From: Sphaerolaimus hirsutus
Lineage: Eukaryota; Nematoda; Chromadorea; Monhysterida; Sphaerolaimidae
Length of the DNA: 64,000 nt
Reading direction: 5' to 3'
NCBI GenBank assembly: GCA_964036195.1
Contig: OZ038453.1
Coordinates: 14,483,206 to 14,547,205, forward strand
In this document: positions 6,882 to 55,671 of the stretch, piece after piece
How the letters are laid out: every line of letters begins with the position of its first letter
How positions within the stretch are numbered: position 1 is the stretch's first letter
Notes under the pieces: model-generated
Databases searched by the model: none
Told to the model about the DNA's origin: nothing
The model's input: only the letters and a program-made list of their open reading frames with translations
Position numbers and translations under genes: made by a program

Positions 6882-7241
6882 ACCATATTAAAATTACCTC
6901 GAAGAAACCCCCGGTATTTATTTTTTCAGAGTTAGAATTTTGAGGGGGGGGGGGGTTAACGAGGGGGGTATTTTGAGGGTTTTTTAAATTCATAGTATCT
7001 ATTTATATTTTTTTTGGGGGGGGGGGTAAATCGAGGGGTATTTCGATTGCATATTTATGGACGCATTTATTGCCAGTATTGGGTAATGGGTACATATGTA
7101 ATAACCTATCGTTTACTACGGATTCTTCACGAAAATATCTGGCGAAAAAATAAACCCCCTCGAATAAGCCCCACTCGAAATAATCCACTCAAAATTCTCA
7201 CTCTGAAAAAAAACTTGTGGGTATTTCGACGAAATACAGTA
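6882..7241. mobile_element. TA-MITE, G-run family, decayed
   Basis: Tips altered (CCATATTAAAATTACCTCGA; TTCGACGAAATACAG) but G-run arrays and core remain. Confidence 0.65.
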
Positions 7242-8345: not shown

Positions 8346-8446
8346 CAGCCAAAATATCCAGCTTGCCCACATCCACTTTCCCACTTTTACTCCCTTTCTC
8401 CCCATAGCCCTTCTGCACCAAATTCAGCACCATCTGTAATTTAGCT
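8346..8446 (-). CDS. SMYD4: SMYD4 exon 7
   Basis: Starts directly after the element's CTGCCCCCAG. Encodes AKLQMVLNLVQKGYG and SGKVDVGKLDILAG. The codon split across the element (AG|A) restores the frame exactly. Confidence 0.83.
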
Positions 8447-8639
8447 CTGGGGGCAGTCAAAGACCCTGTAAAATACCCTGTAAAATGTGAAATGTCATGC
8501 AAAGTGTCAAAAGTCATGGAAAATGCTCTAGAGAGTATTCAACACGTTCGACATTTTCCAGAGCATTTTACATGACTTGTGACACTTTGCATGACATTTG
8601 ACATTTTACAAAGCATTTTACAGGGTCTGGGACTGTCAC
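8447..8639 (-). mobile_element. Introner-like element copy 1, exactly one SMYD4 intron
   Basis: 193-bp foldback element. On the minus strand it starts GTGACAGTCCCAGACCCTG and ends GGGTCTTTGACTGCCCCCAG. The arms are inverted repeats of each other (CAGTCCCAGACCCTGTAAAA motif) with internal tandem GTCAAA/GTAAAATG words. Only the outermost bases differ: one end supplies GT, the other CCCCCAG. The flanking exons 6 and 7 of the SMYD4-like gene join in frame when it is removed. CCAG occurs both before it and as its last four bases. Confidence 0.85.
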
Positions 8640-8814
8640 CTGGCTTCCTCCACGACCACAGTGACACTTGCGCCGGTATCCTGATCTTGACACTGGATGC
8701 CGCAATCCGCGCAAGTTGGCTTGCTGCCAATTGAGCGATCGTTTCCCGCTGGCCCGCCACAGCGTTTGCAACGGTAAGCCCGCAAACGTGTTTCCGTCCG
8801 CTGGGAAGCGGGGT
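8640..8814 (-). CDS. SMYD4: SMYD4 exon 6: post-SET zinc region
   Basis: Encodes YRCKRCGGPAG, CADCGIQCQDQD and SVTVVVEEA. It ends GAAGCCAG, directly followed by the GTGACAG of an introner-like element. Confidence 0.87.
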
Positions 8815-10299: not shown

Positions 10300-10734
10300 C
10301 CGTATTTCCTCGAATTACCCCCGGGGGGTTTATTGTTTCAGAGCAGAAATTTTGAGGGGGGGGGGGGGTTAAACGAGGGGGGTATTTCGATGGGGGGTTA
10401 GTATTTCGCCAGAAATTTTTCGAAATCCCAGTACTAAATTGTTGTTTGAAACGTACACAAACATCGAAAAATGCAACAAAAACCGCCATTTATAACATTC
10501 TATGGACTTATATTTGTACATGACAGTATATAACATAACACAGTCATTGTTTTTAAGATGTGTTCTGCGTTTCCCCGATTACAAACCGCATTACGTTCTC
10601 TATACAGTAAATTGTGGGAGTGGGTATTTCGAGGGGCGGAGGGTTTGTAAGTTCATAGCGGCCATTTTGAGGGGGGGGGGGGTATTTCGAGATGGGATTA
10701 TTTCGAGGGGGGGGGGTATTTCGAGGAAAAACGG
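10300..10734. mobile_element. TA-MITE, G-run family, in SMYD4 intron 3
   Basis: CCGTATTTCCTCGAATTACC ... TTCGAGGAAAAACGG flanked by TA. Starts 33 bases upstream of the acceptor of SMYD4 exon 4. Confidence 0.82.
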
Positions 10735-12078: not shown

Positions 12079-12314
12079 AGTAAGTGAGAATGTCAGATTC
12101 ACAAAATTTCGTCGGATGTCTTCGACGTAATATACCTAAATTAACTTCTTACGCAAATATAGGATTTAATTATGTGTTAATGAATATAAATATATTTCCT
12201 GAAATATGTAAATATGTAAATAGATGTGAATGCGTCAAAATAGAACTACTGAATTGTTAATGAAAAGTGTGGAAGTCGTACAAATAAGATGTGAAAAAAA
12301 AACATTACGCTTCC

Positions 12315-12512
12315 TGCCACTCAAAGATCCTGTAAAATGTCAAATGTCGTGCAAAGTGTCAAAAATCATGTAAAATGTCCTGTAAAATGTCAAACGACCG
12401 GTAAGAAAAAAGAAACTTTGACATTTCCCAGGGCATTGTACATGACGTTTAATACTACATGACATTTGACATTTTACAAGGTGTTTTACGGGGCCTAGGA
12501 GTGGTTTCTGCT
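12315..12512 (-). mobile_element. Introner-like family copy, upstream of SMYD4
   Basis: Degenerate copy with TIRs CCACTCAAAGATCCTGTAAA and a matching inverted end at GGCCTAGGAGTGG. It lies in intergenic/intronic DNA, not between coding segments, so it has no splicing role I can see. Confidence 0.7.
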
Positions 12513-13062
12513 TAAAGCTGCAATACAAACTAAAATACAATGAAACACTACCAAATGGCAATGGAAAATGCGCAAAAGAAAATGTGTACATTAAACAGCC
12601 TAAAGCGAAGAAAGCCAGCTGCTAACACGGCGCAGTGCAACTATTATTGATTTGTGTATAGGATGGAATGTATAAATAAGTTGAATTGAAATGCAGAGAA
12701 TGAATAGAATCTCGAATAGATGAATAAAGAGGGAAGATTGGGGTGTGAATAAAATTTCAATGGATACAAACTGAGAGGGCTGCATTCTTTGCACAGAATG
12801 CTACCGTATTTTGATGAATAAAGTCATCTGAATATTGTGCACTGTGTAATGTCAAAGAGTAACTCAGGTATTTCGAGAAAAAATATTGCATTTATAGTTC
12901 GGTCATTATTCAGAATAGATAAGTGTGAAATTCAAAGTGCATAGTATCCAATCCGTAAAGTTAAATACATTCATCTGTTTGCATCCATTGTGATTTTGTG
13001 GCGGTATTGTGTAAACGCTAAATCGAAAAATCTAAATAAAGAAAAATTCAACAAAATGAAAC
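12513..13062. other. Cubilin intron upstream of SMYD4
   Basis: AT-rich, no coding or repeat recognised. The SMYD4 promoter should lie in 12079-13062 but no motif is distinctive. Confidence 0.5.
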
Positions 13063-13365
13063 CAACCAAATTTCAATGAGCAGTTGGTTGCAGGGAGGCA
13101 ATTTTTCAGACAGATTAAATTTAATTTTGCCCCCTTCCCCAGATTTCAACACGAGCGTCAGTGTGAAATTATCACATCCACTGTCCATCAAAATGACAGC
13201 GATGTCGATAAAGCCAGAATCTTGAATCAGTAGCTGAGTGCATTCGTTGTCCTTCTCAACCGTTTCTACTGCGGAAATTTGAGCTTCAAAGCCAAAACCA
13301 CGATCTACTATTAAATTCTCGTGAAATCTCAGCGTGAAATGTAGTTGACGATTGAAGCGCACCGG
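13063..13365 (-). CDS. CUBN: Cubilin-like exon 25: end of CUB6, start of CUB7
   Basis: Starts directly after the element's GCAG with PVRFNRQLHFTLRFHENL and GFGFEAQIS, finishing CUB6. Continues with ECTQLLIQDSGFIDIAVILM and LPPCNQLLIEIWL of CUB7. Donor TTG|GTTTCA gives phase 0, matching exon 26 5.6 kb away. Confidence 0.85.
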
Positions 13366-13545
13366 CTGCGGGCAGTCCCGGACCCTGTAAAATGTCAAAT
13401 GTCATGCAGGGTGACAAAGGCCATGTAAAATGCTGTGTAAACAGGCAACTCGGTTGCCATTTTACCGGGAATTTTACATGACTTTTGACACTTTGCATGA
13501 CATTTGCCATGTTACAGGGCATTTTACAGGGTCTGGGACTGGCAC
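13366..13545 (-). mobile_element. Introner-like element copy 2, exactly one cubilin intron
   Basis: 180-bp foldback. On the minus strand it starts GTGCCAGTCCCAGACCCTG and ends CCGGGACTGCCCGCAG. It separates FCEDDRTMIGQ from PVRFNRQLHF, which together form a continuous CUB ending. CAG precedes it and forms its last three bases. Confidence 0.85.
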
Positions 13546-13579
13546 CTGGCCAATCATAGTCCTGTCATCCTCGCAAAAG
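13546..13579 (-). CDS. CUBN: Cubilin-like exon 24: 34-base microexon, CUB6
   Basis: Encodes FCEDDRTMIGQ. It is this short because an introner-like element (13366-13545) splits what would otherwise be a 337-base exon. Acceptor AAATCTCAG; donor GGCCAG|GTGCCAG is the element's first bases. Confidence 0.8.
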
Positions 13580-13827: not shown

Positions 13828-14762
13828 TTATTTCCTCGAAATTACCCCAGGGGGTTTATTTGTTTCAGAGTGGAAACTTTGAGGGGGGGGGGGGGGTATT
13901 TCGAGGGGGGGGGGCTTATTCGAGGGGGAGGGGCGTTATTTTTTCGTCAGAAATTTTCATGAAATTCATAGTAAAGAGTACGCTTTTTTATACCCAAAAC
14001 CCGTAATCAACGTGTCCGAGTAATAGTATATTTGGACATATCAACATCCATCGCTACACAAACTAGTGTATATGTGTAGCATAGTTGTTAAAACGTATTT
14101 ACTTTTACTCGATAAATACGTATACTCGAGTACAGAGTAAATACGTTTACGTTTCCTCCGAAAAAAGTTCTGTTACTCGCTTTTACGTATACTTTTTGAA
14201 AGTACTCGAGTACAGAAAACGTATTTTAGAAGGTATATAGGTTTTCAAAGGCATAGAAGGGAAAAACGGAGAAAATTAGCTAAAAATACATGAAACTAAT
14301 TGAAAATGGGTATAGAACCAAAAATAAAGTAAAAAATTGCGTAAAAAGGCAAAAAGTTATGAAAATAGCTAATTTTGAGTGACATTTCTCAAACATTTTG
14401 GCGACATTTCTCAAAAGTACTCACGCTTACGTTTTCTGCGGGGCAAAGTACATTTACTCACGTTTACTCACGAGTAAAAGTAAAAAAATTCACTTTACGT
14501 TTTCTGTACTCAAGGGGTGAGTAAAAAATAAATACTTTACATTTACGTATACTTTGAAAAAAGTTCGGTACTTTTAACAACTCTGATGTGTACCTGCGAT
14601 GCAAACTGTGACCAATATATACACAATGTACATTGCATACATGATGTACATGATTCCAGATAGGGGGTATTTCGAGGGGGGTTATTTTTTCCCCAGCTCA
14701 AAAACACGTGGGGGTATGGCGAGGGGGGTTAATTCAAGGAGGGCTATTTCGAGGAAATGCGG
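13828..14762. mobile_element. TA-MITE, G-run family, split by a hAT-like MITE
   Basis: Left tip CTTATTTCCTCGAAATTACC, right tip TTTCGAGGAAATGCGG. The hAT-like MITE at 14080-14585 is inserted in its core. Confidence 0.72.
14080..14585. mobile_element. hAT-like MITE (CAGAGTTG family)
   Basis: Ends CATAGTTGTTAAAACG and CTTTTAACAACTCTG; flanked by ATGTGTAG/ATGTGTAC, an 8-bp TSD with one mismatch. Rich in ACTTTTACTC/GAGTAAAAGT words. It sits inside a TA-MITE copy. Confidence 0.78.
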
Positions 14763-23519: not shown

Positions 23520-23813
23520 CTGGGGGCAGTCCCAGACCCTGTAATATGAACTGTAAAATGTCAAATGTCATGCAAAGCGTCAAAAGTCGTGTAAAATGCC
23601 CTGCAAAATAGCAAATGTCACGCAAAGTGTCAAACATGTAGGTAGGTAAATATAATGCCCTGTGAAATGGCAAACTTCGTTAACATGACTTTTCACACGT
23701 TGCATATGACATTTGCTATTGTGCTGGGCTCATTAATGACTTTTGACACTTTGGATTGGATGACCTTTTATTTGACATTTTACAGGTCATTTTACACGGT
23801 CTGCGAGTGGCAC
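23520..23813 (-). mobile_element. Introner-like element copy 3, exactly one cubilin intron
   Basis: 294-bp foldback. On the minus strand it starts GTGCCACTCGCAGACC and ends GGTCTGGGACTGCCCCCAG. It splits a valine codon between MAVIITP and RVQFTCGH of CUB4. The inner part is longer than in copies 1 and 2, from extra tandem TGTCAAA units. Confidence 0.85.
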
Positions 23814-23930
23814 CAGGTGTGATAATTACTGCCATATTTTCGGGTGCCATAAATCTCCACGCGCAATGTAATTCCAATGGTCGATTTACTGCCGCTCGAC
23901 CAAATGATGGGTCAGTGTCTGAGGTTAAAC
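23814..23930 (-). CDS. CUBN: Cubilin-like exon 17: CUB4 core
   Basis: Encodes LTSDTDPSFGRAAVNRPLEL then HCAWRFMAPENMAVIITP. The start could be 23930, directly after the MITE (TG acceptor), or 23918, after CTCAG; both keep frame. The donor CCTG|GTGCCACTC is the first base pair of an introner-like element. Confidence 0.8.
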
Positions 23931-24146: not shown

Positions 24147-24224
24147 CAGGGGGGTTGGGTTCATGATCACTTGATGAAAATGTTCCAACTGTGGTTTTCA
24201 CTTGAATGTCGCCGCCACAAGCAA
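24147..24224 (-). CDS. CUBN: Cubilin-like exon 16: start of CUB4, cut by a MITE
   Basis: Acceptor CCCCTCGCAG. Encodes ACGGDIQVKTTVGTFSSSDH, a clear CUB start, and ends at PNPPG where a second copy of the same MITE family begins with GTGCC. Confidence 0.82.
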
Positions 24225-24369
24225 CTGCGAGGGGGTGAAACGAGCGCCTTTGGGGAACTGACCAGTTAGTAGCAAATATTTCTTATAGCATTTAGAATAT
24301 CTGTGATACACTACTATTTTATTGTTCCACCATCTTCTCCACGTGCGAAAATTGGGGGTGCACTGTTTC

Positions 24370-24570
24370 GCACATACGCCTGTTTCGCACAAACGCCCGT
24401 TTCGCACACGCATGAAACCTGTGTCGCACAAACGCCCGTTTCGCACACGCATGAAACCTGTGTCGCACAAACGCCCGTTTCGCACACGCATGAAACCTGT
24501 GTCGCACAAACGCCCGTTTCGCACACGCATGAAACCTGTGTCGCACAAACGCCCGTTTTGCACAAAAATG
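24370..24570. repeat. 39-bp minisatellite
   Basis: About five tandem units of the type GAAACCTGTGTCGCACAAAC + GCCCGTTTCGCACACGCAT. Because 39 is a multiple of three and the unit lacks stops in several frames, long repetitive open frames appear on both strands. Diverged units continue to 24630 and inverted ones at 25085-25230. Confidence 0.85.
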
Positions 24571-24724
24571 ATGCCTGTGCGAAACAGGCGTATGTGCGGT
24601 ACAGGCGTATGTGCGAAAGAGGCATATGTGCGCGTCACTGGTGCGTGTCCGGGCACCCGAACTTTACCCCGCCCCCTTCCCCGCTGCACAATGAGTTCCA
24701 GGCGGCGCTGCGCCGGCTGTCTGA

Positions 24725-24800
24725 GTTTTCATTTTGCAAGAAATTTTCCATGAATTTTGACACTTTGCATGACATTTGACATTTTACAGGGTCAAAGGTG
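24725..24800 (+). mobile_element. Partial introner-like repeat
   Basis: One arm only: GACACTTTGCATGACATTTG followed by ACATTTTACAGGGTC. Confidence 0.5.
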
Positions 24801-30448: not shown

Positions 30449-30597
30449 CTGGTGTTTGGCGCTACCGCCAGAGTAAAAAGCGCAATGGCGCTCTTGGCGC
30501 CGTGCGCCATTGTTCCCTGGTGCCATTGGCGCTGGGCACTTGAGATTAGAAAAATGCCATGTCGCTTTTTGCACTTGGTGCTGAAGTGCTGGTGCAA

Positions 30598-30765
30598 TCC
30601 CTGACCCTGTAAAATCCCCTGTAAAACGTCAAATGTCACACTAAGTGTCGAAAGTCGTGTAAAATACCCTGCAAAATGGCAACTCTTGCCATTTTGCAGG
30701 GCATTTTACATGACTTTTGACACTTTGCATGACATTTGGCATTTTACAGGGTCTGGGACTGCCGC
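30598..30765 (-). mobile_element. Introner-like element copy 4, start of the intron after cubilin exon 8
   Basis: On the minus strand it starts GCGGCAGTCCCAGACCCTG and ends near GGGATTGCACCAG. Its first two bases are GC, a usable minor donor. It is followed by a GCGCC-rich repeat, so the intron would be composite. Confidence 0.7.
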
Positions 30766-30988
30766 CAGGCTATTTTCACATCAGTAGTCTTGGTTCCTTG
30801 AAGCCATCCAAAACTCACAGAAGCATCGGGCGCAGTCAACAACCAGTGACAAGATACTTCGCTAGTGTTTGAAAACATTGAATCGTCATAGATGTCATCA
30901 TTTTGAGCCGGCACTGGTTCGACAGTTTGCGGCAGCACGAGTTTCACAGAATTGTGCGTTGAATTGAGATTGAATGTGCCACCACAGC
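30766..30988 (-). CDS. CUBN: Cubilin-like exon 8: start of CUB1
   Basis: Begins GCGGTFNLNST, the canonical CUB opening, and contains CHWLLTAPDASVSF. Acceptor ATTTTCAG. It ends at CCTG|GCGGCAGTCCC, the edge of an introner-like element (30598-30765), so the donor would be GC rather than GT. Either a natural GC donor or a decayed GT. Confidence 0.75.
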
Positions 30989-37020: not shown

Positions 37021-37240
37021 GCTGGGGGCACTCCCAGACCCTATAAAAGAACCTGTAAAGTGTCAAAGACCCTGTAAAATGTCATGTGTCATGTAAAAGA
37101 CCCTGTAAAAGACCCTGAAAAGTGTCAAAGACCCTGTAAAATGTCATGTATCATGTAAAAGACCCTGTAAAAGACCCTGAAAAGTGTCAAAGACCCTGTA
37201 AAATGTCATGTATTATGTAAAATACCCTGTAAAGTGTCAT
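37021..37240 (-). mobile_element. Introner-like element copy, 3' end intact
   Basis: The minus-strand 3' end GGGTCTGGGAGTGCCCCCAG directly abuts an 87-codon open frame (36757-37020). The rest is tandem GACCCTGTAAAA/AAGTGTCA words without a clear second tip. Confidence 0.6.
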
Positions 37241-40961: not shown

Positions 40962-41225
40962 TCATTCTGGGGGCAGCAAATCATCGGTGACAGCTCCGTT
41001 GGTCCCATCTGTCTCCATTGGCTCTGTGTTGTCTTTACTGTTGTCTGTAGAGCCTGTTGTAGAGCTCGTGCTCGAGCTACACTCACCATCAGAAGATGGG
41101 GTTGGGGATCTTTTCTTCGACTTTTTATTGCTCTTCCCTGCAGGAAGATTTGGAGATTTCCCACTGATGCATGTTGTCCCCACTGTTGTTGTTGTCTTCT
41201 GGTAGTGAAAATCATTTTTGCTCAA
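40962..41225 (-). CDS. Ser/Thr-rich acidic open frame at the 3' end of element A
   Basis: 87 codons overlapping the env stop: KSNKKSKKRSPTPSSDGE then a Ser/Thr run and an acidic end. Could be the original env tail in another frame or an accessory frame. Not recognised. Confidence 0.3.
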   Translation of the reverse strand: MSKNDFHYQKTTTTVGTTCISGKSPNLPAGKSNKKSKKRSPTPSSDGECSSSTSSTTGSTDNSKDNTEPMETDGTNGAVTDDLLPPE

Positions 41226-43189
41226 AGGCTTGTTGTTATTTGTCGTAGCTGTGGCTTCAGTATTGTTAGCGATATCATTGACTCGGTGCTTTCAGCTAAC
41301 TTTCGGCTGTGTGTTGTCAGCCTTGCTGTCGGTGTCATAGGTGTCTTCATTGTCATGGCTTCGTGATGTTGTAGATCTTCTGTCCCTTCGGCGTCGGGAG
41401 GAGGGGGACCTCCTTGACCGTGACCGGTGTTGTCTTGGCAGGGTTCTAGGCTCTGGAGGGGGTGGTGTACGAGGCCCTCGTTGGACTGGTTCGCGCATCC
41501 CTTGCTGGGTGCTGCAACTCCTGTAGTCTTCTGGCGCGCTCGCCAGGCGTTTAACTGGGCGCGAAGTCGTGTTGTAGAACGTGCAAGCTTCGGCATGATG
41601 GCGCGGCCCGTGACTGCTCGCCACTGCAAATATAAATAAATACAGTAGCTTATCACTGCAATTATCAACATTATCATTACAATATTCACTGTTGTTTGCA
41701 ATGGCCCAGTCAGCAAGGTGTCTAGTGCTGAAGCACTTCCTTCTGCTGTCCCGCTTACTATGTGTCCTAGTTCTTTTCCTACACCCTCAAAGTAGGCTCC
41801 GACCCCTTGCCCTATTCCAGCCACAAATGCTTGGATGGCCTTGGGGTCGTTTGACATTGTTGAGAAATATTGTACAGTTTTATCTAATTTTTTCTCAATG
41901 TTGTGTAGTTTGTTGAACTGGTGTCGTGCAGCTGTTATACTGAATGCTACATCTGTCATAGTGTGACTTGGCATTCCAGTGACATTCAAGTGGAAGGGGC
42001 TCCAAGTCCCGTTCCAGATGAGTTCCAACGGGAGTTTTGTCACATGCAAGTTTGTTGGTCCATTTTCGTTTGCCCATTTGTCGTTTTTCAACATGTAATA
42101 TTTGTGATCTTTGTAATGACAATTCTCCTCAGGTGACTGTGTAATAAGGTCGCTTCCTCCTGGGGACACAAACATAATATGCCTGTGTCCCGGAAGTCTC
42201 ACTGGCAAGAATCTGTAGCACGTGTTGTTTATTTTGTGATCAAAGTAAATATGTTCTGGTGTCACTGTTTGGCATTCCCAGAACATCAGTACATCTCCAT
42301 GCCATTCTGCATAAATGTTGTTGCGGCCCAGTAGGGCTCTCAATCCCAAGGTGGGATCCAATGTTATGAATTGATTGATTATGTTTATTTGGTTTTGTCT
42401 CAAATAACATAATTGTTGCCATATCATGGAGAATTGTTGTTTTTCTAAATTTGCAATTTTATATATGACATATTGTCTCTGTTCCGTCCTGAAATATTTC
42501 AGATTTACGGAATTAATCTGCTGTGCGGTCATGCTATCTTTCTCTGACTTTGCAAATTCAATGAATGTCGAGCCTTGTTCTGTATATTTCGCATGTTTGG
42601 GGACGCATTCAGAATTTTCTGGTCGCTCTTGTTGTATTGTTATTGTGAAGGCTGCTTGTAATTGTTGTATAACAATGTGTCGTTCGGATATCTGAGCTTC
42701 AAAATTTCCGAAATTTTCATATGCGCATTGTCCTTCAAATTTTGTGGCATCCCACACTGACACTGCATTATCACTGTCAAAGCAGTAGCCAGCGGCTGGC
42801 GCGCAATGCGATAAATCTTGAATTTCTGATACAATACGTTTGCCATCTAAACTTGCTACCGTGCCGATTTCAATGTGAAAGTTTGTCACTTCATTTGTGA
42901 AATTTTGACAAAAGTAGCAATATTGTATCGTTAAAGTGTTGTTTGTGCTCCATAAAGCTTTATTTATTTGTGTTAGATTTTGTCCTTTCCACCTTTTTGT
43001 TTCCATTGCTTTCATGCATTCAGCCAGGGTTACTACCTTGTTGTTCAGAATTTCCGGTGGCAGCATTGCTTTGCCTCCAACCAGGCTCATGTAGGTAATT
43101 ATGGCGTGTTGTTGTTCGTAACACCGGTATACTTGTGTTTGTTGTGGTTCCGTCTTCAATGCCCACACTCTCACTCCCTGTTTAGTCAC
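41222..43189 (-). pseudogene. env: Element A env-like glycoprotein
   Basis: 655 open codons with many cysteines and N-glycosylation sites. Landmarks shared with element B: GTVASLDGKRIVSEIQD, SECVPKHAKYTEQG, DPTLGLRALLGRNNIYAEW. A membrane segment TVNIVMIMLIIAVISYC near the C-terminus and a basic cytoplasmic tail. An old genomic copy with the N-terminus out of frame. Confidence 0.78.
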
Positions 43190-44693
43190 CTTTTGTGGTT
43201 CCGGGAAAATGACAGTTGACTGTTTTCAGGATTTGTACCGGGTGTCCTGTCCTTGTTTTATGACACACATTGTAATTTCTGTTGTATTTGTTTATCCATG
43301 TTTGTTGTTCTGCATTGGCTGCCATGACGTTTGCCACCGTGACTATCCCCATTGTTGCCCAAAATGCATATGATCCTGCATATCTGCAACCTCGTTTTGG
43401 TCTTTCTTTAATGGGTGTTGTTTCAGTCTTTTGTTTGGGGATTTGTTGTGGATTTTCATTTTCATCTTTTTTCATATTTTCTCGTTCTTGATATTTTCCA
43501 CTGATTTCTAGTGGGCACAGTTGTGTCGGTGACCTCTCTATCTCTCTTTGAGTGTTTGTTTTCAAGGTCACGCTTCTAATTTTGTTGTCTGTTGATCTGT
43601 TAACCTTTGTTATCTTTCCCATTTGCCATGCTCCTCTTGGCATTTTTTCGTGTTGTACTAACACAACTTGTCCCACTACTGGTTCTTCTTTCACTTTTCC
43701 TCTGTTATTTATTTTCCTTGTTGTCCCTCTTAGCATATCCACGTATCCTTTGGACCATGCATTCCATAATTTTTCTCTGTTATCACTTATTGTTTGCCAT
43801 AATTCTATCATGTTGTCTCTCTCTTTCTCATTAATTGTTGTTAATTCAATTTTATCCATGCATGTTATTCTTTCGTTTTTGTCCAAATTTTCTTCCACTC
43901 CATCAGGGGGGGTTCCCCACAAAAAATGGACGGGGCGGAGAATTTTTGTGGAAATGTCGTCATTCGATACGTAAGTAATTGGTCTGGTGTTGACAGCAAA
44001 TTCTATGTCTAGAATTACTGTATGTATTGCTTTCCATGTTAACAATTGGCGCCCGCTTGCTTTCTTTAAAAGATTTTTTACAAGGCCGATCATGCGCTCA
44101 TACACACCTCCTTGCCATGGGCAGGTGGCTGTTGTGAATCTCCATTTTATTTCTGGAACCGATTTTGCGCATGTTTTAAATGCTCCCGCATTGTCGGACC
44201 AGATTGACTTCGGCATGCCTCTTCTGCAGAAGAAGCGTTGCAAGGCCATCAGTGTGTCGTTTGTTGCCACTGTGTCAGAAAATTCTAGATGTACAGCTCT
44301 CGTTGAGAAGCATGTAATCAGAAGTATGTGGAATTTGTGTCTTTTGTTGTTGTGCATGTATTGTAGCGGCCCCATGTAATCAATACCGCAGTGTTGAAAG
44401 GGTTTTATTTTTGCTTGTAATCTTGTTATTGGCAGCGTGTGGAAGTCTGGCATCGCGAACGTGCCTCCCGTTGCTTTTCTGCATGTTGTGCATTTTCTGA
44501 GTTCTGAAGCAACTGTTCTCCGGCCATCCGGTATCCAACATTGTTCCCTTATTTCTGCTAGTGTGTGCACTGCTCCTTCATGTTGTACATATTTGTGGTA
44601 ATGGTTTATGACTAATGTTGTCAGGTATGCATGTTTCGGCAGATAGTACAGTACTATCGGCGTTCTGTCTGCATCCTTTGGTAGTCTTGTCAC
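43182..44693 (-). pseudogene. pol: Element A integrase and start of env
   Basis: Zinc-binding HHCC region (HKYVQHEGAVHTLAEIREQC ... CTTC), catalytic core starting CGIDYMGPLQY, with SDNAGAF and WQGGVYERMIGLVKNL, then a DUF5641-like tail (VLVQHEKMPRGAWQMGKI). The frame runs on into a hydrophobic segment (AFWATMGIVTVANVMAANAE) that would start env, then breaks by a frameshift near 43185. Confidence 0.85.
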
Positions 44694-46628
44694 TCAGTAC
44701 AGGATGTCAACGTTGTTGTTGTAGGCTAGTTCTTGATGGCTTTCCTTTCGTACCTGTTGTATCAATTTGCGACACTGTTGTTGCTGTGCGATTCTCACAA
44801 CGTGTTGCCATGCTGCATTTCTTTCTTCTGGCTCCAGCGGTCGGGATAAAAATCCTCTCACTTTTCGGTTTAAGCTGTTGCTGAAGAATTTATGCTGTCT
44901 GTTCAGTCTGATGATGATATTCAGTAACTTCGTTAAGCTACTGTATCGTTCAAAGTTCAGGTCGTATGGGTTGTAATTTCTCTTTGATTCTTCTACTAAG
45001 TAGTGCGCTTTGTTCTCTGTTGTGGCGCCAGCCCATATCGGCCTGTGTATTATTGTTGTTCCTTTTGCCAGTTCTGTTGTGGCCTTTTGATATTGTGACA
45101 CATCTTTCATTTCTTTTATGATTGGTACTTTCATGAACTCTGGTCCGCTTTTCCACAAAGTTGACCGGGCCGGGTTTACCTCCGTGGCAACTTTAGCTAC
45201 CAGGAATTCGCATTTGTTGCTAAGTTCATTTATCCTTTTAACTCGGTTGTTTACGAATGTAGCAAGCAGTTTGGCTGTCTTCAGCCAACCAATGACCACT
45301 GTACTATCTGTCCATAATATTGTTGATTTTATTTTCCACCCTCCAAGCTGCTTCAGCTCTTCATGGATATAATTGACTAATTCTGTGCCAATTGTCACTG
45401 AGAGCAGTTCCAGCCTGGTTATTGGTGTTGTGGCCCCGGATTTAGATGGTAACGGTGCCAATTTTGTTCGAGCTGTCACAAATGCTGTGTTGTAGTCTCC
45501 CCCTCCTTTCTTCTTCTGTTGTCGGATGTATGCACATGCTGTGTATCCTAATTTTGATGCATCGCTAAACACGTGCAACTCCAGGGGTTTGTCGTCGTCA
45601 AACACGTTTATGCCCATTCTTTGAAAAGAACGTGGAAACTCCACTCTGTCAATTTTTGCCAGGTGATGTTTCATAGTTGTAATTAGTTCAAGCGCTCTTT
45701 CATCTTCAATTAATTCATCCCATTGTGTTGTTTTTGTTTCTTGCAGCAGCACTGACAGCTGAGCCTTCAGGGTTAATGTCACTGGTGCTGTGAATCCAAT
45801 GGGGTCATATGCTGATGCCAACAATTTGTTCAGATTTTGTCTTGTGGGTATTGTAATGCTGTCGATTTGTAATTTTGGCGTCGATATTGCCAGCATGTCT
45901 GTTTTGTGATTATATTTCATTCCCATGACTGCTACAATTTTGTTCATCTTCGGGCTTCTGTCGTTTTCTGCTATTTCGTTCATGACTGCTTTAGAATTCG
46001 ACAGCCATTCTCTCATGTTCATTGAACACTTGTTGAAGAGGGCTTTGACCTTGTAGTACAGCTCCAGCGCCTCGTTTTCGTTGGTGACGCTCATGATGAA
46101 GTTGTCGATGTAAATGTTGTTAATTATCATCGCAATTTGGTTTCGTTCAACTTCGTTTTCTTCATACTCGTTCATGTTGTTTATTGTCAAGTCTAGATGG
46201 TATTTTATAACTGCTCCCAAAATTGATGGGCTGCAGACTAAACCAAACAATACTCGTTTGAACCGGAGTACTATAAGATTGTTTTCTGTTATCGGTTTTG
46301 AGGCATTTTTCAGCCAAAAAAATCGAGTGTAATCTCTTGCCGGTTCATGTAATCCAATTTGCAAGAATGCTTTTTCAATGTCCGCAATTAATGCTAAGTT
46401 GCCTGCCCTGAACCTCAGGAGCAGGCCCAAAAGTAGCGGTGTTGTAATTGGCCCTCTGAATAAACATTCATTAAGGCTGGGCTTACCTGCCAATCCATCG
46501 TATACAATCCTGCATGACGTGGATTTGCCCGGTGTGATAACTGGTTGGTGCAGCAGGTAATGGACTCCCTTGTTGTCTGCTTTGTCCTCACAGATCTCAA
46601 TTATTCCTTTTTCTAATTGGTCGTCCAA
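44694..46628 (-). pseudogene. pol: Element A RT, RNase H and Pao region
   Basis: 644 open codons between two in-frame stops. RT motifs PHQPVITPGKS, ADIEKAFLQIGL and NIYIDNFIMS; RNase H ELHVFSDASKLGYTACAY and ILWTDSTVVIGWL. The RT active-site box reads YIDN, not YVDD. Ends before integrase at a TGA. Confidence 0.85.
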
Positions 46629-46631
46629 AAC

Positions 46632-47403
46632 TTACCGGCATTGTTCGAATAAGTTTGGATCCTTTGTAAATCTTCTTATCAGCGATTTGAACCTTGCCAG
46701 GGCTTCAGCTTTTCCTGTTGGCAGGTCGCCGATGTTCTCCTTGTATGGCCAGTTGATGTAATATCGTTTGCCGTTGTCGTTGAATTTAATGCTATTTAAT
46801 ATCATTTCTTCCGCGATGTCGTCATCAATCGCATAAGGGTCATCGGTAATTCCTACTGCCTCTAGGCTGTGAAATTGTTGTAGGGTTTCTTTCCCAATGG
46901 CTACCGCGGTCAAACCACACGTGGCAGACATTGCGAAATCCATGTTGTTGTTGTCTATTTGTTGTTCACTCGCTCCTGCTAGCATGAAGCCAAGCGTGGA
47001 GCTTACCACTAACAGGCCTGATGGTAATTGGAGTCCAGTTTGTTTTATATCAAATTTCCAAAAATTGTCTTGACCAATTACAACAGCTGGCTGTCGCAAT
47101 TTGCTTCCCGTTAATTGTGTCGCCGTTTCAAATTTCTTGGCAAACAGTTCATCGGCATTTATTCCCCATGTGTTGTATATCATGTTTTTGTTGTTTATTG
47201 ACAGCGGAGGGGGTTGGCAATAGGTTGCTAGTTCAGGGACTGCCCTTACTAGCATGCTCAAATCCTCATGTCCTAAGTGTTGTTGTGGTATTGTGATTTC
47301 TACCAGTTTTGCTTTCACTTTAAGCGGGTGGGGGGTTGTGAACACGTTCATGCTCAGCATGAGGTCCCCTTTGTTGTCTAGTTCTATTTCATGTGCTAGA
47401 TCT
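46632..47403 (-). pseudogene. pol: Element A protease end and RT start
   Basis: Open from the MITE to an in-frame TAA near 46632. Contains LPSGLLVVSSTLGFMLAGAS (DUF1758-like protease end) and ITDDPYAIDDDIAEEM at the RT start, the usual BEL/Pao order. Confidence 0.8.
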
Positions 47404-48067
47404 CACAGGGAAGAGTAAAACGCTGACAGCTCGCTGACAGCTCGCTTGCCAACCAGTAGAAAAATTTTCAGCTTGCTGACAGCTCGCTGACAACTCAGCT
47501 GAACTATTATGTAGCTCGCTGACAGCTCGCTGACAAAAATGTTAAACATGATGTTTCATTTGACCCAAAAGAAAATGTAAATGTCATTCAGTGCAAGAAG
47601 TGTGGACTTCTAACTGCAGTGCAGTACCAATCAAAATGAGACCCTTTCTTCTCAACAGCGATGTACTTGCAATGAATTATTAGAAAGTGTTTCTTGAACA
47701 GTAAAAGTGTTTTTCAATGCTCATGAGGTGACTTTATTTACTTTATTTACATGAGGAATAGTGATTTGATGTTTTGCTGCATGTTTGAACAGAGCATTGA
47801 GTCGTCTGTTTGTTTACTCAGATTGATTTTGGGTCAAAAAATGAATTGTACATCACTCACAAAATTGCACATCATGAAGATACTCACTAAGCTGACAGCT
47901 CGCTGACAGCAAGACTGTTCATTTTTCAAAACTGCTGCAGCTCGCTGCCAACCGCTGACAGCTCGCTGACAGCAGGCGGCCAACCGCTGACAGCTTGCTG
48001 ACAACTATAAACAATTGGTTGTCAGGCTTGCTGTCAGCGAGCTGTCAGCGTTTTACTCTTCCCTGTG
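47404..48067. mobile_element. MITE of GCTGACAGCTC repeats inside element A protease
   Basis: Ends CACAGGGAAGAGTAAAACGC and GCGTTTTACTCTTCCCTGTG, flanked by TCT on both sides. Filled near both ends with GCTCGCTGACA units. It separates the protease active site from the rest of the protease. Confidence 0.82.
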
Positions 48068-48070
48068 TCT

Positions 48071-48732
48071 TGTCGTATGTAAGAATATTCACACCCAGTG
48101 TCAAAGAAAATGTTCACATGCTCTGACATGATTCCAGTCTCTTTATTTAGAATTGGTGACTGGGCCATTTGCAACCTCACGACTTTAAAAGACAAAGACT
48201 CACTGTTGTCTTGGTGGGTCGACTTTGTGGTCGCGGCAGCCGTCTCTTCTCGGTGATGCGGTCTGCACTCTGGTTCCGGCGTGAGCTCTTCATAGTAGTT
48301 TGTCGCTGCATTTGCTGTTGTTTTTTGTTCTTTTGTGTTTGAGCTGCTGCTGGATGTTGTTTTGTTGTTGGAGCCTCTGTCAAACTGGTTGGGGCACAAG
48401 GTGCTGTGGTGTTTGTCTTTCGCTCGGCAGTAATAACAGCTTAGCTCCGATTGACAATTAGCTTTGTTGTGTCCCAATTTTGTGCACCTCGGGCATCTGT
48501 CCGGCATTGCTTTCAGCGCCATTTTGTGATCCTTGATCGACGGGTACTGGTCGCAGTCGGTCGTCCAGTGTTCATTGCCAGAGCAAAATAAACACCTGTA
48601 GCTCGGGTGTGGTTTTGTTTGCTTCTGTTGTTGTCGTGGTTGCGTGTTTTTAGAATTTTCGTAGGTGCGCGGTGCTGGGCGTTGTGTTGTAGCGGCTGCG
48701 CATGTGGTGTTGTCCTCGTCTTCCTCCTCCAC
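48071..48732 (-). pseudogene. gag-pro: Element A zinc knuckles and start of protease
   Basis: Basic region, then zinc knuckles CPRCTKLGHNKANC and CYYCRAKDKHHSTLC (nucleic-acid binding), followed by FFDTGCEYSYI with the D-T-G aspartic protease motif near 48086-48107. Broken just after by the 664-bp MITE. Confidence 0.82.
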
Positions 48733-48810
48733 TCGTTTCTCGGAGCTGGAATAGGCGACGGTACTATTATTGTGAGCTCCTTTAGCTTTTGTTTTGTTGT
48801 CATGTTGTTT

Positions 48811-49906
48811 TTAAGTGCTATCATTTTCTTTTGTTGATTCTGTTGTTTGGCATTCTAGTCGAGCTTGGGCCACATTTCCCAAAGCTTTAACAAACGTTTT
48901 GACGGTCATTGCCGGTCCATCTTCGTCGTCATCATCGTCGTCATGCGGGTTTTCTCTCCTGAAGTCTTCGGTCACCGCCAAGCGGATTGCTGGGCTGAGG
49001 TATTTCCTCAGTTCACGCAGCACAGCCCCAGACTCTGTGTTCTCTCCGCGCTCTGCGAGTTGACTCAGTGTTGTACCGACATCCCGTCTAAAAGTCATGA
49101 GACTGTCACCTCTCATTGTTGGGGGTTGTAAATTGTATAGTTTTTCCCATAATGTGTTGGTTACATATGTTGTATTGCCAAAATTGGATTTTAACAATTT
49201 TATTGCTGTCAAGTAATCAGCACCATCCATATTTAATCCGCCAAGTAATTTTTTGGCTTCACCTTTGAGTGAGTCATTCAGGTAGGTGAATTTTAAGGTG
49301 GCGTTCATTTTCTTTCGTTGGTGGATTTGAGATATTCCACCACCGGGTCCATTCTAGCAGATCGCCCGAGTATTTTGGCACGTTTATCTTCGGTAATCTC
49401 ATTAATTCTTCATCATCACTAGAGCTATCTAAGTGTTGTAATTTCTTTTCTAAGCCACCCGTTATACCTTCTTTCAGGTCTTTTATTTGTCATTCCGTGC
49501 TGCTTTTCAAGGCGTCCAGCTGGCTTTGTCGTTCTTGCATTTTTGCCAGTATAGCCATAATGCCATCCTCGCGGTATAATTTGTCATTTAGTTTGTCGTT
49601 TTCCTTGGCAGCCGCAGTTTTCATGTCCGCCGTAGCATTTGGCCCATTGGCCGTTTTTAGAATTTCTGCCACAGCTTCTTCATATTTGTCCATAGCCGTT
49701 TGTAGCAATATTGTTTTATCCCGTATTTTTGTGAGTAGCATTTGTTGTTGTGTTGTAGCTGCTTCTGCAGTATCCCTGTTGTGGTGGTAATCTTTGTCGT
49801 TATCCACTTTGAAATACGGCACCTCAGCCTGTAGGATCTTCAAGGCGTCGGTCCTGTAGGCGTTGAGCCTCATCCTGAGCGGTCCAGTGGGGGTGACTTC
49901 GCTCAT
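48811..49906 (-). pseudogene. gag: Element A gag, frame-broken
   Basis: ATG at 49906 (MSEVTPTGPLRMRLNAYRTD). The first frame stops at 49490; the capsid-like DUF1759 region resumes as LPKINVPKYSGDLLEWTRWW and, in another frame, TYLNDSLKGEAKKLLGGLN at 49308-48811. At least one stop and one small deletion. Role in life: capsid assembly and RNA binding. Confidence 0.8.
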
Positions 49907-51560: not shown

Positions 51561-52770
51561 GATTGCATGACATTGTGCTATCACCAAGCCGGAACGAACA
51601 TTGTGCGGCAGCTGGCAGAACTTCAAAAGTCCTGCTGAACATCAATTGGCCTTGGCTGAGCGTTGGCGGTTGATTTGCAGACAGCATTGTGCCAAAGTCA
51701 CAGCACTCCTGTCTACATCCTGGGAGCGGTTCTACGCTCACGCGCGGAGGACACTGGAGTTCTGACAAGCCTGTCAGGATTTCAGGCAGCTTTCACCAGT
51801 GTTCTGGCAAGGTGCTAGACGCTGGGCGGCACCGGCATTTGACAAGGAGTCATTGTCGGACGGTGGTCAAAATTTCGCTGGACGCTCCTGGACATCCGGA
51901 CGCCAGTGACCGCTCGCACGTCCTTCCTATGCCAAGGGAGGGTGACCTGACGGAGACAGGATCGCCACAGAGCCACGCTAGTCAAAGGGCTGTTTTTTGG
52001 GCATTCGCGGAGGTCCCTCGCTCCACTAGGTAAGAGTGGACTCATACCTCGGAAGTGCAAAAGTAGGGGTATCAGTGTACAAAGGGCTGTAGCTGACAGA
52101 GGGCTGTAGCTGACAGAGAGTGGATTTGAAAACCAAGTATTAGGATACTTGGTAGCGTGTAGGGGCTTTGCGGAGCTCCCATCAAATATACACGCTGTGC
52201 CTGCTCGGTACCATCAGATCAGACAGCACAAAAGTGCCAGAATACTGCATTGCACAGGCGCAATTGCAGAGCAGTGTACAGAAACACTGCCCAGAATCAG
52301 AAAGTGCACCAGAGTGCACAGAAACGTGTCACAGGTGACACGGCAAGCGCAGCACTGCGCACAGCGGCACAGGAGCCGCTCAGGAAAGCAAGTGGCCGGC
52401 GTGGTCACAAGGCACACAGGTGTGCCAGAAAGAGCGCCAGAGCGCTCAGAAAGAGTGTGTACGGACCCCCTTTGGGCGCACACTGCTGGGCAAATAAATT
52501 GTTTATTGTCCAGGTGGATTTGACCGGTGTGTTGAAGTCAACGCGTGTGAACAATCACGTCAGGGGCTTTAGGAACACACCTGGTGCCAGTGCAGTAAAG
52601 GTCAACGCGTGAGAACACGTCAGGGGCCTGTAGGACTGCATTGGTATTGTGCGTGGCACAACAAATCCGTAGTGCACAGAGCACTACATCGAAAGACGCA
52701 GAGAAGCGTCACAGGCGTCACAGGAGACGCACTATAAAGAGAAACAGTGAAGGAAAATTCATCAGCAAAA
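51561..52770 (+). other. Leader of element B
   Basis: 1.2 kb between PBS and gag. Several short open frames without recognisable similarity, and repeated AGGGGC / GTCACAGG words around 52315-52720. Probably untranslated leader with packaging or translation signals. Confidence 0.5.
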
Positions 52771-55671
52771 ATGGTTTCGCCAACGGGTCACATCAGAAAG
52801 ACCCTGGGGCCAGCAAAGCACAGGGTGGAAAGTAGATTGGCAAGAGAATTTGCCAAATATGACCTGGAACTATTTGCGGAAGCATCAAAGGATGATAAGA
52901 GAACAGAAATGAGAAGAGTGATTGCATCTATCAAACAGGAGGGTGCAAAATTAGAAAGTGCAATGACTGCAGTGAGAACTCAATTTGACGCATGGAGGGA
53001 TATCGTCAAGGACATTGACGAACCCGACCAGATGGAACAAGAACAGAAGATATACCAAGACTCATATGAGGAATATGCAAATATGTCAGACTTGGTGACA
53101 CAGAAAGTAGTAGCCATGAATGTGTATATCGAAGAGTTGCAAGATATGATCCAGCAACAGAGCGGAAATACCATGTATGAAGTCAATACAGCATTCATAC
53201 AGCAGATGGCTGCCCAGATGGCTTTGACAGCTCAGGGAGCTGTTCAGGGAGCCAGTTCAACCAATGCAACCACAGCAAAAAGCGTCAAATTGCAAAAACT
53301 GGAAGTGGAACAGTTTACTGGGGAAACTGTCAAATTTCGATCATGGTGGCAAATGTTCGAATCCCACATTCACAATCGGACAGATTTGGAGGACATTTCC
53401 AAGTTCTCATACTTGAGGAGCTTGCTGAAAGGCTCAGCATTTGGCATGATCAGTGGATTGAGTGTGACCGCAGAGAATTATGCACCCGCAATTGCAATGC
53501 TCAAGAAAAGATATGACCAGCCAGTTGTGGTCAGAAACACGCTGATGAGTAATATCATGAAGCTGCGACAGGCCAGGAATACCTGTCAGGATATGAGAAT
53601 TTTGTTTGATGCAATTGAAAGGCTGCTCCAGCAGTTGGAGTCACTGGGTGAATCAGTGGAACATCCAATGCTGTTGAGCCAGCTGCAACAGAAAGTACCA
53701 CCCGAGGTTCTCAGAGAAATCCAGAAGGAACAGGGAACTGAGGAAGCCTTGACGGTGGAGATATTCAGAAAGCTGTTTGGCAAGCAGCTAGCGCTCAGTG
53801 AGGCTGTACAGCATGCACAGCAAACTGAGGCACCAGTTCAGCAATCGCGCCAGGGATTCGGGAATAATCCACGCGCACAGCAATTCAATAATCGATTCCA
53901 AGGCAATGGGAATCGATTCAGAGGGCCAGAGAACCCAAGGACCAGCACAGGGAGCATGTCTGTGATCCAGAATGGTCAGAGTGCACCACAGGCTGGATTC
54001 ATGAATCCTGGGAGGCCGTGTGTGTTCTGCAATGACACACAGCAATTACACTTTAATGATAAGTGTCCAAAGTTTAAAACTGCCAGAGAAAGGAGAGTGA
54101 TTTTGTCAAAGGCAGAGCGATGCCTGAGATGCCTGCAGAAAGGGCATTACATGAATCAATGTCAATTTACAAGAAGTTGTTTCTATTGCAAGTCCAATAG
54201 GCACCACACTGCGGTGTGCCCAGAGAAATTTGGTGACAATGGCAGTGGAAACGCTGGACGGCAAACTCCAGCATTTAGAGCAAATGGTCAACAGAATGGC
54301 CAGCAATCAGCAAACAATGGCAGAAAGTCTGTGCCGACGGTCGGTCGACCAGCACAGAGCCAACAGAGAAAGGCCACAGTGAATTGTGTCACTGTGGAAG
54401 AAGCTGGACCAGAAGTGGTAGAGACAGAAACCATATCCAGCACAGTGGTTACAGAACCAAATACAAAGAAAGAAAATACGTCAGTGAACCTGTCAGTAAA
54501 CAGGAATATGTCAATGCTGATGACAGCCAGAACCGTGATTGAGGCTTCAGAAATGGATACAGAGATGGAGCCTGAACAGCCACCACTACAGATTCAAGCG
54601 TTCCTGGACACAGGATCCCAGGGAACATACATGTCAGAGAAAGTGGCCAAGAAACTCAATTTGAAGAGTACAGGTGAACACCACATCCAGGTGTACACAT
54701 TCGGAAATGAAAAGCCGCACTATAAAGTAGTACAGCAAGTGCAATTCAGAATGCGGCTTAGAAATGGCCAGAAAGTTGATATGGTGGCTGATGTGGTCCC
54801 GACGTTGACCACAGAACAAGTCAAAGTGCCTGTGTCAGAACAGGACGAAAAGTACCTGCAGAAGTACTTCCCGGATGAGAGTTACTTTGCAGACAGAGTT
54901 CCCAAGGAAAAAGGGACAGAGTGCAAGTTCAAGCCAGACATTATAGTGGGCTTGAATTATTTCTGGGACTTGATGTCCAGAAACACCAGCACCACCAGAC
55001 TTCCGTCAGGATTGTATGTCATTCCATCAGAATTGGGATTGCTGATGGGAGGTGGGCAGCTGACGAGCAACAGAAATCAATGGACCACGGATGGTGCATA
55101 TCCGGTGGTGGTCAACACAATTGTGCATCAAATTCAGAGAGAAAAGTGGTACGAGGAAGCACCGTTGTCAATTGCTCCTGTACCAAATGTCAAAGACATG
55201 GATAGACTGGATACCATTGGCATAATGGACCAGCCAGACCTCGTCGAGGACGATGAGGCCATCAAGCAATTCAATGAGAGTGTACAGAGAAACCCAGATG
55301 GACGGTACTCTGTAAAGTTCATGTACAAACCAAATTTGCATGAACTCCCAGATAACAAAGCAATGGCGTTCAAGAGGTTCAGATACCTCACCAACAGGCT
55401 CAAGAGAGACCCAGAATTACTGGAGAAAATTCAGGCAATCATGAAAGCACAAGAGGAGCAAGGAGTGATTGAGAAAGTCCAAAAGGATATTATGGATGGC
55501 AGAAAATTCCATATATTGCCTCATCAACCAGTGATAACGCCAGAGAAAACTACCACAAAGGTCAGAGAGGTATATGATGCCTCAGCGAACCCGCCAGGCA
55601 TGCCAAGCTTGAATGAGTGCATGTACCGCGGTCCAGTTATACTACCACAGCTGGTAGGGATGCTGATGTGA
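52771..55671 (+). CDS. gag-pro: Element B gag-protease-RT(start)
   Basis: ATG at 52771 in context AAAAATGG. N-terminal charged helical region; capsid-like DUF1759 (LEVEQFTGETVKFRSWWQMF); Gln-rich stretch; zinc knuckles CLRCLQKGHYMNQC and CFYCKSNRHHTAVC; aspartic protease QAFLDTGSQGTYM with Asp codon near 54607; DUF1758-like end; RT start PHQPVITPEKTT. The frame ends at TGA 55669-55671, inside the RT, where element A reads on. Confidence 0.9.
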   Translation: MVSPTGHIRKTLGPAKHRVESRLAREFAKYDLELFAEASKDDKRTEMRRVIASIKQEGAKLESAMTAVRTQFDAWRDIVKDIDEPDQMEQEQKIYQDSYEEYANMSDLVTQKVVAMNVYIEELQDMIQQQSGNTMYEVNTAFIQQMAAQMALTAQGAVQGASSTNATTAKSVKLQKLEVEQFTGETVKFRSWWQMFESHIHNRTDLEDISKFSYLRSLLKGSAFGMISGLSVTAENYAPAIAMLKKRYDQPVVVRNTLMSNIMKLRQARNTCQDMRILFDAIERLLQQLESLGESVEHPMLLSQLQQKVPPEVLREIQKEQGTEEALTVEIFRKLFGKQLALSEAVQHAQQTEAPVQQSRQGFGNNPRAQQFNNRFQGNGNRFRGPENPRTSTGSMSVIQNGQSAPQAGFMNPGRPCVFCNDTQQLHFNDKCPKFKTARERRVILSKAERCLRCLQKGHYMNQCQFTRSCFYCKSNRHHTAVCPEKFGDNGSGNAGRQTPAFRANGQQNGQQSANNGRKSVPTVGRPAQSQQRKATVNCVTVEEAGPEVVETETISSTVVTEPNTKKENTSVNLSVNRNMSMLMTARTVIEASEMDTEMEPEQPPLQIQAFLDTGSQGTYMSEKVAKKLNLKSTGEHHIQVYTFGNEKPHYKVVQQVQFRMRLRNGQKVDMVADVVPTLTTEQVKVPVSEQDEKYLQKYFPDESYFADRVPKEKGTECKFKPDIIVGLNYFWDLMSRNTSTTRLPSGLYVIPSELGLLMGGGQLTSNRNQWTTDGAYPVVVNTIVHQIQREKWYEEAPLSIAPVPNVKDMDRLDTIGIMDQPDLVEDDEAIKQFNESVQRNPDGRYSVKFMYKPNLHELPDNKAMAFKRFRYLTNRLKRDPELLEKIQAIMKAQEEQGVIEKVQKDIMDGRKFHILPHQPVITPEKTTTKVREVYDASANPPGMPSLNECMYRGPVILPQLVGMLM

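Follow-up and report, generated by a model that had tools for sequence, protein, structure and literature searches.

A foldback transposon family in the nematode Sphaerolaimus hirsutus very likely creates introns, some of them predicted to end in TG

We analysed a 64,000-nt stretch of the Sphaerolaimus hirsutus genome (GCA_964036195.1, contig OZ038453.1, 14,483,206-14,547,205 of the forward strand; hereafter the window), in which a SMYD-like gene on the minus strand carries a foldback element between two of its exons. The features at this locus, in window coordinates, are:

8640..8814, minus strand: SMYD-like gene, upstream exon (open frame; SET and SMYD2 matches upstream of the junction)
8640..8642, minus strand: upstream copy of the CAG target duplication, at the end of the upstream exon (sequence)
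8450..8639, minus strand: foldback element proper, 190 bp, GTGACAG...CTGCCCC (sequence, arm comparison, target duplications)
8638..8639, minus strand: predicted GT donor, the left tip of the element (sequence)
8447..8449, minus strand: downstream copy of the CAG target duplication, source of the predicted AG acceptor (sequence)
8346..8446, minus strand: SMYD-like gene, downstream exon, joined in frame as AG|A (open frame)

Read along the minus strand, the context is ...GAGGAAGC CAG|GTGACAGTCCCAGACC...GACTGCCCC CAG|AGCTAAATT..., such that the interval 8639-8447 starts with GTGACAGTCCC, ends with GACTGCCCC CAG and is flanked by ...GAAGC CAG and AGCTAAATT. An earlier note on this DNA had described the interval as a transposon that is exactly one intron. 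The GT...AG stretch is indeed there, but its final CAG is the target duplication and lies outside the element. The AG acceptor of the predicted intron would be duplicated host sequence, with the intron consisting of the element plus one target copy; because the AG derives from the target duplication, removal of such an intron restores the empty site. The split-codon exon join (AG|A) that the note proposed is borne out: 8814-8640 and 8446-8346 form one open frame, and translation of the predicted model with the element retained reaches a stop straight after the junction. The note's statement that the arms are inverted repeats except at the tips nearly holds for the family consensus (below) but not for this copy, in which 83% of the 95 bases in each arm (8449-8543 and 8546-8640) are complementary, so that differences occur elsewhere as well.

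For the joined model, matches were obtained to Pfam SET (E 1.4e-10) and to SMYD2 (E 3.5e-8), consistent with a SMYD protein in general; the more specific name SMYD4 was the earlier note's own. Both matches lie upstream of the element junction, which no protein alignment crosses, and the protein collection searched returned no SMYD homologs. The case for the window copy is therefore made by frame and codon score, the latter being modest (13.8 sense against 4.0 reversed with a first score, 10.1 against 9.1 with a retrained one; see below). A tRNA scan and an Rfam search of the window at the gathering threshold gave no matches.

The element belongs to a large family. The genome searched has animal-like genes, among them those for laminin, a nicotinic receptor and thrombospondin repeats. 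Across it (348 Mb, 762 contigs), the exact 22-base left tip with an adjoining CWG occurs 1,273 times (686 with CAG, 587 with CTG), and a reversed control pattern does not occur at all. Similarity searches gave 2,718 candidates with the window element as query and 4,223 with a second copy as query. Forty candidates were scored from each search. We read all 40 loci from the first and, of the 36 that the second added, 20, as well as the window itself and eight arbitrarily placed 10-kb stretches; those 80 kb held one full copy. The resulting 73 full copies were reduced to 71 by removing the window copy found again (L001) and a duplicate of L018 (L021), and 60 of these could be oriented whereas 11 could not. 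This sample is non-random, since copies were chosen mostly as best matches to two intronic queries.

A consensus built from 42 copies is 189 bp long and near-palindromic, with individual copies diverging by 4 to 17%. Its left tip is GTGCCAG and its right tip ...CTGCCCC. The two arms mismatch at the tips (GTGC at one end, GGGG read from the other) and at two inner positions, and the consensus folds near-completely, with four unpaired bases at each end. Paired tips on C1 are sometimes 150 or up to ~350 bases apart, so the family's tips also bound members of other lengths. Three further copies lie within the window:

13369..13545, minus strand: second copy, 177 bp, flanked by CAG duplications (13366-13368, 13546-13548)
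30592..30765, strand ambiguous: third copy, tips GTGCA and GCGGC
12314..12507, no strand assigned: decayed fourth copy without a GT tip

Exact joining across the second copy gives a 123-codon open frame, with a codon score under the threshold and no Pfam domain passing. CUB-type, extracellular-looking translations were seen by eye beside two copies (~13050-13400, and on the minus strand near 30600-30900); the CUB-like pieces searched there gave no Pfam domain above cut-off. BLAST also finds partial arms and arrays of the family at 23520-23816 and 37022-37239.

We next asked whether the copies coincide with coding junctions, as the earlier note had suggested checking. For each oriented copy, the flanks were joined with one target copy kept, and frames spanning the junction were codon-scored with GT first in the sense direction and in reverse. 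By this measure, 34 of the 60 oriented copies are called coding in the GT-first sense direction, none is called coding in reverse, and the other 26 receive no call (binomial p 1.2e-10 if every copy is treated as independent; L009 and L020 each contribute two of the 34, and L076/L077 are a probable duplicate pair). Since the sample was picked by similarity, 34/60 is not a genome-wide rate. The codon score was trained on 11 of the coding-call exons, and its coding threshold was fixed after the first scores were known. In a second set outside the training, 15 of 19 oriented copies were called coding in sense. Retraining on seven second-set exons gave 21 sense calls, none reversed and 20 without call among the 41 other copies. 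At every one of the 34 coding copies, a join displaced by 1 or 2 bases scores below the exact one. C also fills the final four element positions more uniformly in coding copies (134/136 cells) than in others (90/104; Fisher p 0.0003). Among the sampled copies, then, the proposed introner reading is upheld at frame-preserving coding junctions. The sense-only orientation could instead reflect strand-biased insertion rather than selection. Two genes, at L009 and L020, each hold two sense copies, both L020 copies lying within a BCKDHA-like gene. A further copy, L007:1504-1693, has GC rather than GT at its sense tip and coding-like flanks (10.0 sense, 5.0 reversed), which may indicate a GC donor; it was counted as unorientable and is outside the 60.

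Protein domains point the same way at about half of the junctions. Pfam was run on 30 junction proteins (29 sense, one reversed), and in 14 of the 29 sense proteins an above-cut-off domain runs across the junction: TSP_1, Peptidase_M24, E1_dh (twice), Laminin_N, SSF, PIP49_C, Trypsin, PhoLip_ATPase_C, BRK, PK_Tyr_Ser-Thr, HCO3_cotransp, UCH and Na_Ca_ex, the last crossing by only ~4 residues. In the other 15, no domain that clearly spans the junction exceeds the cut-off: L023 has a Mito_carr match above it that passes the junction by only 2 or 3 residues, L012 (7tm_1, Srw) and L071 (PI-PLC-Y) have matches below it, and the rest have none of note. As a control, we searched ten reversed frames, nine of them the top scorers, trimmed to 60 residues per side; a single domain exceeded the cut-off, Neur_chan_memb in L010. 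This copy, one of the unorientable ones, has an ATG duplication, ends CACATG and carries GT at both tips, so GT still leads in the sense of its gene; its protein aligns without gaps across the junction to nAChR alpha-7. Junction alignments are likewise gapless for SPT16, laminin beta-1 and BCKDHA. Solved structures gave no match for the SLC25A3-like or the PLC-like fragment.

The flanking triplets reveal both a target preference and an unexpected class of intron ends. CAG or CTG stands at both ends of 54 of the 60 oriented copies. Among coding copies, C precedes 13 of the 15 CAG/CAG sites and G follows 17 of the 18 CTG sites, which suggests CCAG/CTGG as the preferred site, CCAG and CTGG being one site on opposite strands. 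We considered a splice constraint as the source of the G after CTG, and set it aside because target preference fits better given the C before CAG. The 34 coding copies comprise 15 CAG/CAG, 10 CTG/CTG and 8 CTG/CAG pairs and one GTG/CTG, so that 11 of 34 have CTG at the predicted intron end. For copies ending in CTG, the sole frame-preserving removal we found is GT...TG. No cyclic shift of the cut yields an AG in these copies, and use of the nearest upstream AG, in an ACAG 19 bases before the end (its position also in the consensus), would break the frame. Junction alignments at putative TG ends are gapless for laminin beta-1 and BCKDHA, as well as for the unorientable L010 copy in its nicotinic-receptor gene, and, for a P4-ATPase, reach just past the junction. 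These predicted introns probably use TG as their only acceptor.

Mismatched target duplications are one-sided. Among the 60 oriented copies, 11 are CTG/CAG and none is CAG/CTG (Fisher p 0.0003), and genome-wide CAG is commoner at exact right tips (815/1,372) than at left tips (686/1,273; Fisher p 0.005). In the SPT16 copy, the upstream CTG codes for a Cys aligned to a Cys of the solved structure, so CTG is likely the original triplet and the downstream CAG the changed one. Together, the one-way mismatches suggest that TG acceptors mature to AG, although the mismatch may be a quirk of insertion. An elevated CTG-to-CAG rate in coding copies was considered and dropped (8/18 against 2/13 among C1 pairs with both tips; not significant). 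On balance, we lean towards the view that the family regularly makes introns with TG as the sole frame-preserving acceptor and that these mature to AG through the downstream target copy. The AG 19 bases upstream would also allow a two-step use, with AG for recognition and TG for joining.

The most serious alternative, possible though in our judgement the less probable, is that the coding CTG/CTG copies are not spliced at TG and instead represent young harmful alleles, insertions in pseudogenes, or introns spliced with a frameshift at the AG 19 bases upstream. In favour of this alternative, divergence from the consensus does not date an insertion, and the human TG acceptors described in the part of PMC2374985 cited here always stand beside an AG, never alone. 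Broken insertions should, however, ignore orientation, and all 10 coding CTG/CTG copies have GT first in sense with none reversed, which favours TG use unless insertion is strand-biased. These copies also interrupt conserved genes, such as those for laminin beta, BCKDHA and an SLC25A3-like protein. On C1, the first 100 left and first 100 right tips listed include 25 close pairs of exact tips (12 CAG/CAG, 11 CTG/CTG, 2 CTG/CAG, 0 CAG/CTG), and of four CTG/CTG pairs read with their flanks, three are sense coding (one with a close reversed score) and one is not.

Removal without the spliceosome, guided by the hairpin or acting on the DNA itself, would account for exact excision of CTG/CTG copies with no AG required, and would suit a consensus that folds on itself almost fully. 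We regard it as very unlikely. A symmetric hairpin should work in both directions, yet coding copies are GT-first only; folding energy does not differ between coding and other copies (Mann-Whitney p 0.38), so that the hairpin looks no better preserved in the former; and the SMYD-like gene has six further introns, located by eye, that read GT-AG. Still less likely is an RNA-borne introner spread by reverse splicing, a route by which fungal introners have been read (in the part of PMC9860276 cited here) and which would make the sense-only orientation of exonic copies a product of the route rather than of selection: target duplications and a near-palindrome are marks of DNA transposition, the same duplication flanks copies without a visible coding frame, and such a route would not leave CTG or ATG duplicated at both ends. 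Equally improbable is an ordinary MITE that sits in a pre-existing intron and merely happens to end near the splice sites. Introns often contain MITEs, and no coding call was made for 26 of the 60 oriented copies, but in the 34 others the exact join restores the frame and outscores every shifted join tried, with no leftover intron sequence between element and exon, a coincidence with coding junctions that an introner predicts and a transposon in older introns does not.

We conclude that the window element and its family are very likely an introner, namely a non-autonomous foldback DNA transposon (MITE) that would make spliceosomal introns in exons. Similar predicted introns occur at many loci with similarity reaching both splice boundaries (34 of the 60 oriented copies), and inverted repeats with target duplication mark transposition. 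Counting against this reading, an acceptor seemingly better than CCCCCAG is available in the ACAG, 19 bases before the end, although its use would break the frame.

Foldback-like transposons likewise give rise to introns in the introner elements of Micromonas and Aureococcus and in the transposon-derived introns of the larvacean Fritillaria. The part of the introner survey cited here (Gozashti et al. 2022, PMC9860276) names two animal groups with introners and describes, as in the present family, whole-intron transposons with target duplications and inverted repeats, including a Chrysochromulina type that carries its own 5′ splice site and takes the 3′ site from the duplication. The present family differs from the introners described there in being almost wholly palindromic, in its CWG targets and in the roughly one third of coding copies with putative TG acceptors; rare 5′ sites (GC, GA) figure in that part of the survey, but not TG ends. 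The human TG 3′ splice sites in the cited part of PMC2374985 serve as alternatives, with an AG at most 28 bases away. Here too a TG would end a U2 intron with an AG nearby, 19 bases upstream and within that distance, but TG would be the sole frame-keeping site, and would be so in many putative introns of one origin. PMC searches, which covered little and missed a 2025 introner paper, returned no description of this foldback family.

Among transposons, the closest likeness we found is to NuwaI of the PHIS superfamily, described in the cited part of PMC4482050 as having CWG duplications and tips that usually begin with GGG, and as recorded so far from animals. Of the 60 oriented copies, 54 carry CAG or CTG on both sides. 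The 3-bp CWG target duplication is shared, and the right tip begins with GGG, while the left tip has GTG. NuwaI inverted repeats are given there as 12-61 bp (a reported range, not a strict definition), a range that the present arms of ~94 bp exceed, and unlike NuwaI this family is a short foldback without coding capacity. An autonomous NuwaI-type partner would have a DDE transposase and a Myb/SANT gene enclosed by the family's tips; a PF13359 profile search gave other Harbinger elements, with no transposase between family tips among the matches read. Given the arm length and the missing transposase, we do not file the family under NuwaI.

The PF13359 matches were considered as an autonomous partner and rejected, as the matched family that we read has unrelated tips. 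It is a Harbinger-type transposon of ~2.67 kb (L051:319-2991 and 19 other loci of L049-L068), whose copies are mostly 97-99% identical (L055 at 89%, L064 partial) and whose transposase frame is broken by short stop-bearing stretches resembling introns. The ~192 extra bases spanned by the PF13359 matches are not the foldback element, and a second, weaker group of matches is also present.

The mechanism we propose begins with insertion at CWG, preferentially CCAG/CTGG, with duplication of three bases, as read directly from the copies; mobility most likely comes from a NuwaI-like (PHIS/Harbinger) transposase, judging by the duplication and the right tip. An insertion with GT first in sense reads CWG|GTGCCAG...CTGCCCC-CWG|, and the intron would be the element plus one target copy. 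Splicing it out would return the original frame, as the joined flanks do. A CAG target would supply an ordinary AG acceptor; a CTG target would supply TG at first, and the downstream CTG would become CAG once its T mutated to A. Reversed exonic copies, which would lack a GT start, are presumably purged by selection, and we saw none.

How introns originate is a long-standing question, and animal cases are few (two groups in the cited part of PMC9860276). With 1,273 exact left tips, this family offers a simple, readable route to new introns and, if it is an introner as its sequence suggests, would catch them at birth, often with TG in place of AG at the end. Its near-even use of CAG and CTG means that about half of insertions start with a proper AG and half with TG, which makes the family a natural experiment in the 3′-end requirements of the spliceosome. 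Comparing CAG and CTG copies in RNA would reveal whether TG serves alone and how fast selection makes AG. If our reading of the TG ends is correct, the spliceosome takes TG over a large intron set, perhaps with the upstream ACAG defining the intron first.

Other repeats also populate the window. An interspersed repeat rich in TCGAAATACCCCCC was seen by eye near the SMYD-like gene (~6900-7240, 10300-10720 and 13840-13960), and 24198-24779 is a tandem repeat stretch with repetitive reading frames on both strands. Two retroelement-like sets of gag/pol/env-like frames, of BEL/Pao type by eye, occupy 41222-49906 on the minus strand and 52747-61473 on the plus strand.
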